IMG/VR virus record: IMGVR_UViG_3300033183_000056
Location: 1-58,929 of that record
Direction: 5' to 3' (one strand)
Origin: a virus
Length of the DNA stretch: 58,929 nt
Shown: one piece after another, positions 1,650-39,700 of the stretch
Layout: each line of letters begins with the position of its first letter
How positions within the stretch are numbered: position 1 is the stretch's first letter
Position numbers and translations under genes: made by a program
Notes under the pieces: generated by a model
Seen by the model: the letters and a program-made list of their open reading frames with translations, nothing else
Told to the model about the DNA's origin: nothing
The model's database searches: none

Positions 1650-2522
1650 TTAAACTCTATATGTTCCTGTAAGCAGAACTTGCGCTGCACTGTCAATATT
1701 TACGCTACTTGCGCCACCGCTTCCACTCGCTTGGTTAATGTATATATAACTGGTATTCGATTGCATAAACGGCATTACTCTGTAATCCGATGTTATTGGC
1801 AACTCATTTGTGTAAGCTGAAAAAGAAGAAAATAAGTTTGCTGTATTTTTGGATGTGAAAGGAAGGCCTGTAAGTTTGAACGTACCAGAGCCAGTATGCG
1901 CTGTCCATTCGATGCTAGCTTGAATTTGCACCATATCGCCAATTTTTACATAGCTACCGACCTGATAATTGTAAGTGCCTGTTCCAGCAGTGGTCGCACC
2001 TGCTGCAACTGGCGTCCACGTCCCTTCCTCATAATCATCCAGATAGTTCGCTGAGCCAGTGCCACCTACATACACGCCGCCGGATACAGTTATATCGCCA
2101 GTCACATCAAGTGCTGTTGTCGGTGAAGCATTTACAATACCGACCCGATTATTCGTGCTGTCAACATACAGGGTGTTGGTGTCAAACGTAGCATCACCTG
2201 TGACGGTCAGATTACCACCAACACTAAAGTTGCTGGATACATTTCCACTGAACACACTAAAGGTATCATACACTACAACCTCAACAATATCGCTTGCCGC
2301 AAGAGCAGATAGACCACCAATAGTGTTGGCAGTCGTAGTGTTGTAATCCGTGCCAGCAACCAGCAAAACACCATTGAGGTATACATCAACGTAATTGCCA
2401 TCAGTAAATGTCAGCGTATTGCCGTTATCATCCGTGCCACTCAATGAAGTCTCACCGCCTGATGCAGTGAAATAGTAGCGACTACGGACTGCTTGGCTAG
2501 GTGTTTTGCCTAAATATGCCAT
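1650..2522 (-). CDS. Tail fibre-like structural protein
   Basis: The 290-residue protein starts with MAYLGKTPSQAVRSRYYFTA and contains DGNYVDVYLNGVLL, a pattern common at the N-terminus of marine phage fibre proteins. The middle has short repeats of the form VTGDATFDTNTLYVDSTN and VGIVNASPTTALDVTGDITV, the same beta-repeat style seen in the fibre at 3225-4817. The C-terminal 110 residues resemble a globular receptor-binding head. It lacks an S74 autoprocessing domain. Confidence 0.75.
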   Translation of the reverse strand: MAYLGKTPSQAVRSRYYFTASGGETSLSGTDDNGNTLTFTDGNYVDVYLNGVLLVAGTDYNTTTANTIGGLSALAASDIVEVVVYDTFSVFSGNVSSNFSVGGNLTVTGDATFDTNTLYVDSTNNRVGIVNASPTTALDVTGDITVSGGVYVGGTGSANYLDDYEEGTWTPVAAGATTAGTGTYNYQVGSYVKIGDMVQIQASIEWTAHTGSGTFKLTGLPFTSKNTANLFSSFSAYTNELPITSDYRVMPFMQSNTSYIYINQASGSGGASSVNIDSAAQVLLTGTYRV

Positions 2523-2553
2523 AGGTTACATTCCTTTGTCTATGTTATATCTC

Positions 2554-2901
2554 TTACCAACCTGCAGGAACTTTACCAACAATAGGTGGATTCACAAGGG
2601 TATCAATCTGGGTGTTCAACGTTGCTTGCATCTCTTCCTCTGTCTTGTCTAGCGATGCCAGCACCTTTGCCTTGCACCAGTCTTTTGTCAGGCTATCAAA
2701 CGCAGTGAAGTTGTCTGCATCAGCTTCGCCAGCACTGGCTGTGCCGTAAGCAGATACGGAAATCGGCTGGCCTTCAGCATTGGTTTCGGTGTCACTGACA
2801 GCGGTCATGCGCCAGTGAATTGTCTTTACGACATCGGACAAGTCGCCTTCGGTTGGGGCGGTGTCCAGTTGGGGAAAATCCCAGTTAAAGGTGTTTGCCA
2901 T
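2554..2901 (-). CDS. Conserved marine-phage protein of unknown function, 115 residues
   Basis: The protein starts MANTFNWDFPQLDTAPTEG and contains DVVKTIHWRMTAVSD, a pattern I associate with a small protein common beside tail-fibre genes in cyanophages and other marine phages. The C-terminal half is helical and acidic. Its family has no known function that I can recall. A virion or fibre-related role is suggested only by context. Confidence 0.65.
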   Translation of the reverse strand: MANTFNWDFPQLDTAPTEGDLSDVVKTIHWRMTAVSDTETNAEGQPISVSAYGTASAGEADADNFTAFDSLTKDWCKAKVLASLDKTEEEMQATLNTQIDTLVNPPIVGKVPAGW

Positions 2902-2912
2902 TGTTTACTCCT

Positions 2913-3224
2913 TCAGGCTGTGTATTGTCTTCTTTCAATTAAATGTTCTGGTAAAAAACTGTATTCATAACCAACTTGCTCATCTTGAAGACGATTAATT
3001 TCTTTTGTGTCATTGCAGATAATAACGTCAATATATTCCAATCCATTCAAAACTGCGTATTGTAATCGACATCCACCAAATTGTAACTCGTAATTGCTAT
3101 TCACAACAATCGGATTTACCATCCCGTGTTCTGCAATGTGTTCGTGTATAAGTTTCTGCCTTTCAAATATAGCCCATTGTCTAGGGTCAGTTGCTGTCTT
3201 TACTTCACTAACTTTCAAGCGCAT
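2913..3224 (-). CDS. ParB/sulfiredoxin-fold-like protein
   Basis: The 103-residue protein has the order expected of a ParB N-terminal/Srx-like fold: LIHEHIAEHGMVNPIVV, then QFGGCRLQYAVLNGLEYIDVII (key part GGCRLQYA at residues 50-57). The usual GERR-type motif is replaced by GGCR, so an intact nucleotide-binding site is uncertain. It overlaps nothing and sits directly after the fibre gene at 3225-4817. Such a domain is odd inside a tail-fibre cluster; it may be a small enzyme or regulator. Confidence 0.6.
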   Translation of the reverse strand: MRLKVSEVKTATDPRQWAIFERQKLIHEHIAEHGMVNPIVVNSNYELQFGGCRLQYAVLNGLEYIDVIICNDTKEINRLQDEQVGYEYSFLPEHLIERRQYTA

Positions 3225-14335: not shown

Positions 14336-15313
14336 TTAATAACCTCCACGCTGATTAATGTTGGTGTATTCACCGTCTGCTTTTTCTACTTTTAGCTTTT
14401 CGGCTGCGTACTGTTCAAGTGGTATCCCCCATTTCTCAGCAAGGCGCACATCTTCTTGAGACAATTTAACCTTACGTCCAGAACTAGGGTTGGGAGTGCG
14501 TGACGCTCCTGCTACAACCTGAGAAGCATTGGTCGGTGCTTCAGTCCGTGCTTGCGTCTGCGAGGGTTCAAACCGATTGGGGAATGTTGCCTGTAGACGT
14601 TTGTCAATTTCTTCGTAATACTCATCGTCAGAAGGGTCATAACCTTCGTCCTTCATGCCTGCATCAATTTGCAATGCAGCCTGAGTAAGAATTTGGTCCT
14701 GTCCAAACCAAGGATTACGCCCTGCCCATGCAATGGCTTTAGGGTCATAAGCCTCTTGTGCTTGCTGTTGAGTTTGCTGTCGGCGTTGTGCTTCTAATTC
14801 AAGTTCTTGTTGATACCTGTTGTAAGCATCTTGGCTCTGTTTAATCTGTGCTGATTCAAACTGAGCATTTGACATTGCCTCTTGTGCTGCAAGCATCTGG
14901 TCGGCATCACCGCTTTCTACGGCTTGGCGATAGGCTTTCTTAGCAAGTTCCAACCTGTCACCAATCTGACGTTCATTAGAATCAAGAGTTTCTTTTAGAC
15001 TTTTATTGTACTCTTCTTCTTTTGCTTTTAAACGCTGCTCTAGTTCTTCTTGGCGTTTCTGCAATTCAGCAATTTGCTGCTCACGTTCTTTACGCTGTCG
15101 AACCAGTTGGCGAATACGTTTCTGTGCGCCAGATTCTTTTTCTTCAGTTTCTTCTTCCTGCCCTTGCTTTGCGGTTTGTTCCGAAACATTATCAGTATCC
15201 TCAAAGTCTAGTTCAGGTTCTTCAGGTTGAGATTGGTTTTCAATTTCAAACTCTACCTTTTCTTCGTCCTCTTTTACGGTTGAGGTATTTACCGTTGTCC
15301 ATTCATCAGACAT
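14336..15313 (-). CDS. Scaffolding-like protein
   Basis: The 325-residue protein is acidic at the N-terminus (EEKVEFEIENQSQPEEPELD) and has a long glutamine/glutamate/arginine coiled coil at about residues 60-190. The C-terminus is short and basic (SGRKVKLSQEDVRLAEKWGI). Acidic, coiled-coil proteins encoded directly before the capsid gene are usually scaffolds. The inverted pair CGTCAG/CTGACG about 25 bases upstream could form a hairpin in its leader. Confidence 0.7.
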   Translation of the reverse strand: MSDEWTTVNTSTVKEDEEKVEFEIENQSQPEEPELDFEDTDNVSEQTAKQGQEEETEEKESGAQKRIRQLVRQRKEREQQIAELQKRQEELEQRLKAKEEEYNKSLKETLDSNERQIGDRLELAKKAYRQAVESGDADQMLAAQEAMSNAQFESAQIKQSQDAYNRYQQELELEAQRRQQTQQQAQEAYDPKAIAWAGRNPWFGQDQILTQAALQIDAGMKDEGYDPSDDEYYEEIDKRLQATFPNRFEPSQTQARTEAPTNASQVVAGASRTPNPSSGRKVKLSQEDVRLAEKWGIPLEQYAAEKLKVEKADGEYTNINQRGGY

Positions 15314-15407
15314 ATTTTTCTCCTTTTACGTCAGTTGCGATACCTGACGAGTTACGCTTGATTATTATATTACACTAAAAATTGTGTATATACAATAGTC
15401 AGTGTCA
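15314..15407. other. Short intergenic region with hairpin and TATAAT
   Basis: This gap holds an inverted repeat CGTCAG-N9-CTGACG in the leader of the scaffold-like gene. It also has a minus-strand TATAAT with a poor -35 (TTGTAT, 20 bases upstream). I see no gene. A weak leftward promoter is possible. Confidence 0.4.
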
Positions 15408-15824
15408 TTAATTTGACAGATTAAATGTAGGGTCTAGTTCTTTAGGGTCTGAGATAACCATAGAAATCTGGTCATCAAAGAGAAGGATAAGCCTTACTCC
15501 CTTATAAAAAAACTTTTGGCCTGAATGTTTTCCGTAACAGACATAATCTCCAACAGAACACCAAGGACCTTTCGGAAACTTGTCTTCATCTTCATACGCT
15601 GTTTCACCAATTGCAAGAACTTTACCTACAGTGGTAAGATAGGCAATATCATTTACAGTAGAATCTGGTAGAATGATACCGCCTTTTGTTTCTTTCTTAA
15701 CGGATACGGGCCGCACCAATAGGTGATAACCTGGGATACGAGGAAGGACTTCAGGGTCTGGTGCTTCACCAGCAGTAATCCATTCGTCATTCTTCATTGC
15801 TTTGTCCATAGCGACTGCTTGCAT
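15408..15824 (-). CDS. GroES-like co-chaperonin
   Basis: The 138-residue protein has the GroES core: PRIPGYHLLVRPVSVKKETK, then the mobile-loop pattern GGIILPDST, followed by GKVLAIGE and VGDYVCYGKHSGQKFFYKG. In GroES the hydrophobic residues after GGI contact GroEL; here they are I-L. Phage co-chaperonins such as T4 gp31 let the host chaperonin fold large capsid proteins. Its position among head genes fits that job. An N-terminal 25-residue extension is unusual. Confidence 0.85.
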   Translation of the reverse strand: MQAVAMDKAMKNDEWITAGEAPDPEVLPRIPGYHLLVRPVSVKKETKGGIILPDSTVNDIAYLTTVGKVLAIGETAYEDEDKFPKGPWCSVGDYVCYGKHSGQKFFYKGVRLILLFDDQISMVISDPKELDPTFNLSN

Positions 15825-36929: not shown

Positions 36930-38870
36930 ATGAACAATTATTTACCCACTGATTACCAAAACTTTATTGCATTGTCACGCTATGCACGTTGGAAAGATGA
37001 CGAGCAACGCCGTGAAAACTGGCAAGAAACTATTGCTCGTTACTTTAATTATATTGCAAAACATCTAAAAGAAAAACATAACTATACTATTAAGAAAGAC
37101 CTTCGTAAAGAACTTGAAGAAGCAGTTCTAAACCAAGAGATTATGCCAAGCATGAGAGCATTGATGACCAGTGGTCCTGCTCTTGACCGTTGTCATGTTG
37201 GTGGATATAACTGTTCATACCTACCTGTTGATAATCCTCGTGCCTTTGACGAGACTATGTATATTCTTATGTGTGGTACAGGCGTTGGCTTCTCTGTTGA
37301 ACGACATCATATTGAGAAACTACCTGTAGTAAACGAAGAGTTTCATGAAACAGACACAGTAATTAAAGTCGGTGACAGCCGTCCAGGTTGGGCAAAGTCA
37401 CTTAAGGAACTGATTGCCATGCTTTACTCTGGACAGATTCCTAAGTGGGATGTATCAGAGGTACGACCTGCAGGTGCAAGACTAAAGACATTCGGAGGAC
37501 GTGCATCAGGACCACAGCCACTTGTAGAATTGTTTCAGTTCTGTATTGAAAAGTTCAAGGGTGCAGCAGGACGCAGGCTCTATCCTATCGAATGTCACGA
37601 CATCATGTGCAAGATTGGTGAGGTTGTAGTTGTAGGTGGTGTACGCCGTTCTGCTCTCATCAGTTTGTCAAACCTCAACGATGACCAGATGCGCCACGCT
37701 AAGTCTGGCGTATGGTGGGATGAACCTGAAAAGAACATCAAGCGCGAAGGTCAACGCTCACTGGCTAATAACTCTGTAGCATACAAAGAGAAGCCACAGA
37801 TGGGTACATTCATGCGTGAGTGGTTGTCACTATATGAATCACATTCAGGTGAACGTGGTATCTTCAATCGTCAGTCAGCACAGAAGCAGGCACTGAAGAA
37901 TGGACGCCGTGATGCTGACCAAGACTTTGGTTGTAACCCCTGTAGTGAAATCATTCTTCGCCCTTACCAGTTCTGTAACCTCTCAGAGGTGGTTGTAAGG
38001 GACACAGACACTCACCAGAGCCTCGCTAGGAAGGTTCGATTAGCAACCATACTAGGCACATTCCAAGCAACGCTGACGGACTTTAAATACCTTCGTAAGA
38101 TATGGCAAAAGAATACAGAGGAAGAGCGTTTGTTGGGTGTATCTTTGACAGGTATCATGGATAATAAGTTGACAACTAGTCCTAGTCCTGCATTGCTTGA
38201 AGACTTAAAAGAAACTGCTGTATATACAAATAAGGTTATGTCTAAAGAGATTGGTATTTCTCAATCTACAGCAATCACTTGTGTCAAACCTTCAGGCACT
38301 GTATCACAATTGGTAAATGCAGCATCAGGTATTCATGCTCGACATAATCCATACTACATTCGTACTGTTCGTGGTGACAACAAAGACCCACTAACACAGT
38401 TTATGATTAGCCAGGACATTCCTAATGAGCCTGACGTTACGAAGCCTGACAGCACGACTGTGTTTAGTTTTCCTATGAAATCCCCAAAGGGTGCAGTATG
38501 CCGTACAGATATGACTGCTATTGAACAACTTGAATTGTGGTTGACATATCAACGACATTGGTGCGAACATAAACCATCTGTTACTATATCTGTAAAAGAA
38601 GAAGAATGGATGGCTGTTGGTGCCTGGGTATATAAACACTTCGATGAAGTATCTGGTATTAGTTTCCTTCCATTCAGCGAACATACATATAAGCAAGCAC
38701 CTTATCAGGATTGCTCAGAAAAAGAGTACACAGATATGTGTAATCGTATGCCTTCTAAGATTGATTGGTCATTACTGAGTGAGTTTGAGAAGGAAGACAC
38801 AACATCAGGTGGACGTGAGTTGGCTTGTACTGCTGGAGTTTGTGAGGTGGTTGACCTTACAGCAGCATAA
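36930..38870 (+). CDS. Class II ribonucleotide reductase, B12-dependent
   Basis: The 646-residue protein is a monomeric adenosylcobalamin-type enzyme. It has the active-site motif NPCSE (residues 336-340, thiyl C338 and E340), the partner cysteines C95 and C349, and the C-terminal redox pair CTAGVC (C633, C638). The C338 to C349 spacing equals that of C408 to C419 in the Lactobacillus enzyme. It makes deoxyribonucleotides during infection without oxygen or a second subunit. The host must supply cobalamin. Confidence 0.92.
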   Translation: MNNYLPTDYQNFIALSRYARWKDDEQRRENWQETIARYFNYIAKHLKEKHNYTIKKDLRKELEEAVLNQEIMPSMRALMTSGPALDRCHVGGYNCSYLPVDNPRAFDETMYILMCGTGVGFSVERHHIEKLPVVNEEFHETDTVIKVGDSRPGWAKSLKELIAMLYSGQIPKWDVSEVRPAGARLKTFGGRASGPQPLVELFQFCIEKFKGAAGRRLYPIECHDIMCKIGEVVVVGGVRRSALISLSNLNDDQMRHAKSGVWWDEPEKNIKREGQRSLANNSVAYKEKPQMGTFMREWLSLYESHSGERGIFNRQSAQKQALKNGRRDADQDFGCNPCSEIILRPYQFCNLSEVVVRDTDTHQSLARKVRLATILGTFQATLTDFKYLRKIWQKNTEEERLLGVSLTGIMDNKLTTSPSPALLEDLKETAVYTNKVMSKEIGISQSTAITCVKPSGTVSQLVNAASGIHARHNPYYIRTVRGDNKDPLTQFMISQDIPNEPDVTKPDSTTVFSFPMKSPKGAVCRTDMTAIEQLELWLTYQRHWCEHKPSVTISVKEEEWMAVGAWVYKHFDEVSGISFLPFSEHTYKQAPYQDCSEKEYTDMCNRMPSKIDWSLLSEFEKEDTTSGGRELACTAGVCEVVDLTAA

Positions 38871-39154
38871 TCGTCCACGTCTAGGGCGATAGGGTATAGT
38901 GGCTATGTTGCGTACAGGTGCTATACCTGAGTAGGAAATAACCTACGTTAGAGTGGCAACTATCTCTATGTTGGATGTCGGCATAGAGCGATATATCAAA
39001 TGCCATCTGCAGTGCGGTTGGTATAGGGCATCCCAAATTACTGATACTATATTATCATTACGTTCCATAAATGTTACATTAATGCTATTAACGTATCATA
39101 TATGAACCATTATTCGCCACTGATAGTAACTAAATTTGACCACGGAGAGTAGCG
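38871..39154 (+). ncRNA. Multi-hairpin RNA candidate after the reductase gene
   Basis: No frame of useful length exists here. Bases 38892-39036 contain consecutive stems: GTATAG-TGG-CTATGT-type (38894-38908), CAGGT-GCTAT-ACCTG (38915-38929), GTAGG/CCTAC (38931-38946), CTCTATG/CATAGAG (38964-38988) and ATGCC/GGCAT (39000-39031). GGTATAG and CTATACC could alternatively close the first two. The G+C level looks higher than around it. From 39040 to 39154 I see only A+T-rich sequence and a ribosome-binding site. Confidence 0.5.
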
Positions 39155-39548: not shown

Positions 39549-39616
39549 TAGTACCGATAGGGTTGATTAGTTTAATATTAATGCTATATTAGTACTAATA
39601 GTACCGATAGGGTTGA
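39549..39616. repeat. 18-bp direct repeats before the tRNA-like element
   Basis: TAGTACCGATAGGGTTGA occurs at 39549-39566 and again at 39599-39616, 50 bases apart. The second copy ends four bases before the tRNA-like element begins. Confidence 0.85.
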
Positions 39617-39620
39617 CGAA

Positions 39621-39700
39621 TTGGGTGTGAGTGTAACGATGAGTTTAGGATAACACTTGCTACTTGTAGACTGATACAGGTTCAAATCCTGTCACCCAAA
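39621..39700 (+). other. tRNA-like element lacking a canonical anticodon arm
   Basis: TTGGGTG (39621-39627) pairs fully with CACCCAA (39693-39699), giving a seven-pair acceptor stem. A perfect T-arm ACAGG-TTCAAAT-CCTGT lies at 39676-39692. The middle holds a stem of up to seven pairs (TGAGTGT/ACACTTG, 39628-39659, two of them G-U) with an 18-base loop. I cannot find a five-pair anticodon stem with a seven-base loop. It may be a degenerate tRNA, a tRNA mimic, or a former attachment site. The region from 39701 to 39769 has a further hairpin, CGTGG-TAGG-CCACG. Confidence 0.5.

Follow-up and report, generated by a model that had tools for sequence, protein, structure and literature searches.

Introduction

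RNA C and RNA D of phage T4 are stable RNAs other than tRNAs that are cut from the phage tRNA transcript and whose function is unknown. GOLLD and ROOL are structured phage RNAs, likewise of unknown function, that are often located near tRNA islands (PMC12286853), and the theta ribozymes, which are HDV-like, are small double-pseudoknot RNAs situated beside phage tRNAs (PMC10879173). The manA RNA (RF01745), of marine and T4-like phages, is a further structured RNA with a pseudoknot; its function is unproven and it is a riboswitch candidate (PMC2864571). Here we describe an RNA from aquatic viruses that is new as a family and belongs to a kind already known, that of phage RNAs which, like GOLLD and ROOL, are orphans associated with tRNA arrays. 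At about 165 nt, and with no match in Rfam, it differs from GOLLD (>800 nt) and ROOL (~660 nt). Its likeness to RNA C and RNA D is one of description.

A structured RNA abutting a ribonucleotide reductase gene

The window, by which we mean the whole 58,929-nucleotide stretch of viral DNA that was analysed, comes from an HMO-2011-like phage with a primase-helicase, a DNA polymerase, a Cas4-like nuclease and a portal. The RNA lies directly downstream of the class II ribonucleotide reductase (RNR) gene, the first base of its P1 hairpin being the last base of the TAA stop codon. In order, the fold consists of the P1 hairpin, an H-type pseudoknot formed by P2 and PK1 that encloses P3, a three-way junction of P4, P5 and P6, and a 3' tail.

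36930-38870, (+): class II RNR gene, a 646-aa open reading frame with RNR homologues in phages
38870-39034, (+): whole conserved RNA element, from P1 to GGGCATCCC, defined by homologues, covariation and cmsearch (155.9 bits, the window being in the seed)
38870-38876 and 38884-38890, (+): P1 hairpin, ATCGTCC with GGGCGAT, optional across the family
38893-38899 and 38921-38927, (+): P2, GGTATAG with CTATACC, from strand pairs and covariation
38907-38911 and 38956-38960, (+): PK1, H-type pseudoknot, GTTGC of the P2 loop with GCAAC, from strand pairs and covariation
38931-38946, (+): P3 hairpin, GTAGG with CCTAC, in both alignments, optional across the family
38961-38963 and 39023-39025, (+): P4, TAT with ATA, inferred to close the three-way junction
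38964-38988, (+): P5 hairpin, CTCTATGTTG-GATGT-CGGCATAGAG, from covariation, its loop near-invariant
39002-39022, (+): P6 hairpin, from covariation in both alignments
38974-38977 and 39029-39032, (+): PK2, proposed on compatibility, GATG of the P5 loop with CATC of the 3' tail GGGCATCCC

A preliminary description of this DNA had put forward a candidate new structured RNA here, a compact region of several stems. Covariation in 21-27 diverse relatives, the pairing of their strands, the lack of an Rfam match and the passage of the element as a unit between unrelated phages bear this out, and the evolutionary boundaries, 38870 and 39034, fall at about the place described; an AAATT tail beyond them reaches 39039. 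The composition does differ from that of A+T-rich intergenic DNA, as had been noted, with a GC content of 0.48 in the element, where the 110 bases that follow have 0.31 and the window as a whole 0.40. The description was also right that there is no gene on either strand: only ORFs of 50-51 aa are present, none convincing, and protein coding was rejected on these short frames together with a core whose length varies between 139 and 151 nt without a reading frame being kept. Nor is the element a tRNA, a tmRNA or a simple terminator, there being no tRNA or tmRNA match at the element with ARAGORN or Rfam and no intrinsic terminator site (a GC-rich hairpin with a run of T after it) within 38870-39040.

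None of the 4227 families of Rfam 15 matched the window at the gathering threshold, or positions 38800-39100 at E up to 10. Over the RNA in six relatives (L151, L205, L172, L104, L125 and L092) there was no overlapping Rfam match at E up to 2, and the open-access literature holds no description of this RNA family. Folded as a single sequence the element gives -55.5 kcal/mol, mildly above chance (z -2.07, 8 of 200 shuffles), and its minus strand gives a z of -0.26. With a z of only -2.07 the case for the RNA was made to depend on its relatives, not on folding alone.

Relatives and distribution

Among 80 RNR-bearing virus loci fetched by protein there was one homologue, L024, in the same place after the RNR gene and with 78% identity over 177 nt. 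A 17-nt pattern from the most conserved part found 19 contigs, and further patterns brought the family to about 30 distinct copies in IMG/VR virus contigs, all from aquatic viruses and normally one per contig. Most of the pattern searches required TTGGATGTCGG, which biases the motif towards invariance; a scan with only ATAGGGCATCCCAAATT, free of this bias, returned the same family with TTGGATGTCGG intact, and in addition L208-L211 and L212. The former carry the TGGGTGTCGG hairpin, P1, P2, PK1 and the 3' tail, keep GGGATAGGGCATCCC, have tRNAs nearby and are probably distant members of the family, scoring E about 4 with the covariance model. This model, built on the core and used for searching without PK1, found L202, L125 and L172, none of them in its seed, at E values of 1.8e-14 to 2e-8, and L090 and L092, likewise outside it, at 3e-4. 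Across the family the RNA is about 115-170 nt long.

A covariance search of the 79 other RNR loci found no RNA, so its occurrence is patchy even among phages with closely related RNR genes. Pattern scans, two in all, confirmed no member among 84,980 cellular genomes, the nine candidates having E values of 0.03 or worse or no score at all, and BLASTN with the window element and four divergent members found none in 50,697 isolated-phage records.

Covariation supports the fold

In a 21-sequence alignment tested against a hand-drawn structure, standard pairs make up 94.5% of 854 cells and 21 of the 41 pairs show two-sided change. The covariation score is 0.394; shuffled alignments give 0.194, none of 500 reaching the real value, and slid partners give at most 0.09. 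An alignment of 27 sequences fitted by the model, and thus biased towards its own structure, scores 0.443 against 0.187 shuffled and at most 0.12 slid. Pairing was also assessed on strands picked by hand from 22 members, divergent ones included; L208 and L209 are in this set and in neither alignment. Since hand-picking favours pairing, strands crossed between relatives serve as the control.

For P2, 21 distinct strand pairs are paired at 164 of 164 positions compared with 53% when crossed, and four of its five columns in the 21-sequence alignment change on both sides; PK1 has 15 distinct strand pairs, paired at 132 of 133 positions compared with 75%, and two-sided change in three of five pairs. 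P1, which is lacking in L125 and L172, has 13 distinct strand pairs (125/131, or 95%, paired; 80% crossed), while P3 is lacking in L098, L125, L172 and L202. In the junction P5 is 99.5% paired, with two-sided change in six of ten pairs of the 21-sequence alignment, and P6, separated from it by the ATATCAAAT linker, is 84% paired with two-sided change in four to six of nine pairs and one internal T-T mismatch. P4 is compatible throughout both alignments without any variation, and PK2 is compatible in 21 of 21 sequences, with one G-U variant and no two-sided change, and is absent in L090 and L092; as both hardly vary, they are compatible with the fold rather than proven.

Of the stems named in the preliminary description, CTATG...CATAG corresponds to P5. 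The one given most weight, CAGGT-GCTAT-ACCTG, can form in the window, where alone it competes with P2, but the conserved fold is different: all five of its pairs are kept in only one of 21 relatives because CTATACC pairs instead with GGTATAG (38893-38899). Consistent with this, an exact 23-nt pattern derived from the stem had no hits. The two pseudoknot interactions had been missed. The description had also asked for relatives to be searched for covariation, with random drift as the contrary outcome; the fold covaries and drift is not what the relatives show. The modest z value might be taken to mean that ordinary intergenic DNA folds here by chance, a reading that the conservation and covariation in relatives already refute and that is hardly conceivable. 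It is virtually certain that a conserved structured RNA exists at 38870-39034 on the plus strand of the window.

A candidate of a different kind was mimicry of a peptidyl-transferase strand of 23S rRNA, GATGTCGGC being common to the element and E. coli 23S. This match was set aside as evidence, since in 294 of 400 trials a shuffled version of the element also had at least a 9-mer in common with 23S.

Genomic settings and the proximity of tRNAs

Every copy shares the strand of its neighbours. There are three settings: HMO-2011-like phages carry the element 3' of RNR, T4-like phages carry it 3' of gp32, and it is also found inside tRNA arrays. It abuts the RNR stop codon in the window, L024 and L084. 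At 11 array loci (L091, L096, L203, L112, L151, L125, L172, L202, L205/L206, L090 and L092) the conserved fold lies within the array on the same strand, as expected of a structured ncRNA linked to tRNA arrays. The fit is often tight, the distance from the 3' end to the next tRNA being 5-8 nt in L202, L203, L112, L091, L096, L125 and L172, 16 nt in L151 and 50-68 nt in L173 and L205/L206; in L125 and L096 the RNA starts 2-4 nt past the preceding tRNA. The next tRNA has the anticodon CTA, that of an amber suppressor, in L125 and L205. Many family members have no tRNA nearby.

A small RNA with two pseudoknots beside phage tRNAs, twice with the anticodon CTA, recalls the theta ribozymes of gut phages (PMC10879173) and might be a self-cleaving or tRNA-processing ribozyme. 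We regard this as improbable. No Rfam ribozyme model matches, and many members are away from tRNAs; moreover theta ribozymes are at tRNA 3' ends, whereas it is a tRNA 5' end that regularly comes just after the new RNA. An HDV-like nested double pseudoknot was tried and rejected on the hand-checked strands, as only about 6-9 nt separate the 5' strand of PK1 from the 3' strand of P2, where the P3 helix and loop of HDV will not fit.

Two other features of these arrays may be recorded. In L125 the CTA-anticodon tRNA after the new RNA is followed at 2726-2843 (+) by a skipping-rope RNA (RF02924), which is alike in being a non-tRNA RNA of the same array and unlike in being a separate family in a separate place. 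In L112 an Endonuclease VII-like/HNH gene at 2232-3152 (-), a probable homing endonuclease, lies between tRNA-Gly and the RNA and is absent in the similar L203.

Transfer between phages and slots shared with manA RNA

The T4-like L100 and the RNR phage L098 have, in a whole-contig comparison, a single stretch of DNA similarity. This is a block of 225-230 bp with 88-93% identity, made up of a 58-nt leader and the RNA and ending 0-5 nt after CATCCC, and the same block is common to the RNA region of L100 (900 bp) and L085, L086 and L099. It is direct evidence that the RNA has been transferred horizontally, as a unit, between unrelated phages. Related T4-like phages carry the RNA at different sites.

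Such transfer, the absence from the 79 other RNR loci, the varied sites in T4-like relatives and an apparent loss in L212 would all suit a selfish intergenic cassette of no benefit to the phage. The block nevertheless travels without endonuclease, recombinase or terminal repeats, the RNA is usually a single copy per locus and selection holds the fold across very divergent members, and we judge a purely selfish element to be quite improbable. Mobility and function are not mutually exclusive, and covariation across unrelated aquatic phage groups, together with transfer as a unit, indicates a useful function for the phage exerted through the RNA alone.

The manA model (RF01745) does not match the new RNA, and it finds manA RNAs elsewhere in three of the same records:

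L151, 10-170, (-): manA RNA, model match
L207, 4358-4523, (-): manA RNA, model match
L208 record, 15263-15474, (-): manA RNA, model match

The slot 3' of gp32 holds the new RNA in L100, a second, truncated copy at the end of the L207 contig, and manA in L151. The full copy in L207 is 13 nt upstream of the manA RNA, which scores over the cut-off and precedes a glycosyltransferase-like gene. The two RNAs are thus alike in the slot that they fill, while they differ in sequence, topology and conserved positions and co-occur as separate elements. Against the 5' UTR of sugar or nucleotide genes expected of manA, the new RNA has RNR and gp32 (both upstream), tRNAs and varied ORFs as neighbours.

These shared positions allow the tentative suggestion that a pool of mobile structured-RNA cassettes, the new family and manA among them, occupies a few slots and acts in trans during infection; this is possible, if doubtful. 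Were it true, manA would, at least in some phages, act in trans and be more than a riboswitch, an idea on which its positions 3' of gp32 and 13 nt past the new RNA bear. The association with tRNA arrays, gp32 and RNR, and the slot shared with manA, similarly bear on the roles of orphan phage RNAs and on the status of manA as a riboswitch.

Past gp32 in L096, from 5750 (+), there is a structured-looking stretch of ~100 nt with a terminator-like GGGGGACTTCGGTCCCC at its end, which may be a further RNA occupying this slot.

Action in cis or in trans

Since the RNA follows RNR, and in some phages precedes start codons, the main rival to an independent RNA gene is an element acting in cis, which could serve the gene downstream as a riboswitch or leader, or the RNR or gp32 mRNA upstream as a 3'-UTR element for stability or processing. 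The abutted RNR stop codons and the knotted, aptamer-like fold are in keeping with this, as is the L207 copy just upstream of manA, itself a riboswitch candidate. In L082, L085, L086 and L139 translation signals, namely a ribosome-binding site and a start codon, lie downstream within about 25-45 nt, and a 5' leader would also look like this, which counts against a trans-acting gene. The neighbours on either side are, on the other hand, inconsistent. Upstream are RNR, gp32 or tRNAs. A tRNA follows directly in eight arrays, and elsewhere the downstream neighbours are unrelated (tRNAs, thymidylate synthase, glycosyltransferase-like genes and small ORFs), so that the constant position before functionally related genes typical of a riboswitch is not seen. 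In the T4-like L100 the RNA comes after gp32 (phrog_224) and is followed by a hairpin that looks like a terminator, GGGAGACTTCGGTCTCCC-TTTTC, and by a convergent gene, with no sense gene before them, leaving nothing downstream to regulate. Overall a cis-acting role seems unlikely.

What favours an independent RNA instead is the variety of its neighbours, its close fit between tRNAs, the apparent terminator in L100 and its transfer as a unit. We consider it probable that the family is a trans-acting ncRNA gene that is mobile and is cut out of longer transcripts. From sequence, fold and setting we infer the following course. The RNA would be transcribed within a longer phage transcript, that of the RNR operon, the gp32 operon or a tRNA array, and probably freed by nucleases, either those responsible for maturing the adjacent tRNAs or ones that trim around the knotted fold, an excision suggested by the spacing to the tRNAs. 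It would fold into the H-type pseudoknot and then the three-way junction, with the P5 loop able to be capped by the 3' tail. As a stable RNA it would then act in trans, most likely by offering positions that are invariant and unpaired, those of the P5 loop, the ATATCAAAT linker and the 3' tail, to a host protein or RNP, and it would spread between phages as a cassette.

Apparent loss of the RNA and other features of the loci

L212 resembles L168 minus most of the RNA, deleted between GGTTGGT repeats, and looks like a relative of L168 that has lost it, which would make the RNA dispensable at least there. At 10310-10412 of L212, and 3' of the RNA in L168, is a conserved 100-nt stretch, TGCTGG...CCAGCACCA, that looks like a tRNA-like RNA with an odd body and has no credible Rfam match. 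The window has a tRNA-like sequence of its own at 39621-39700, with an acceptor stem TTGGGTG/CACCCAA, a T-arm ACAGG-TTCAAAT-CCTGT and a degenerate D/anticodon part, which neither ARAGORN nor Rfam calls. A direct repeat around CCGATAGGGTTGAT is present at 39550-39567 and 39600-39617, 50 bases apart, and the related CCGATGGGGTTGAT precedes the RNA site in both L168 and L212. Finally, positions 39088-39103 of the window are TTAACGTATCATATAT, a promoter-like intergenic motif that is not enriched within the window and that recurs nearly unchanged ahead of the RNA site in the same two contigs, L168 and L212.
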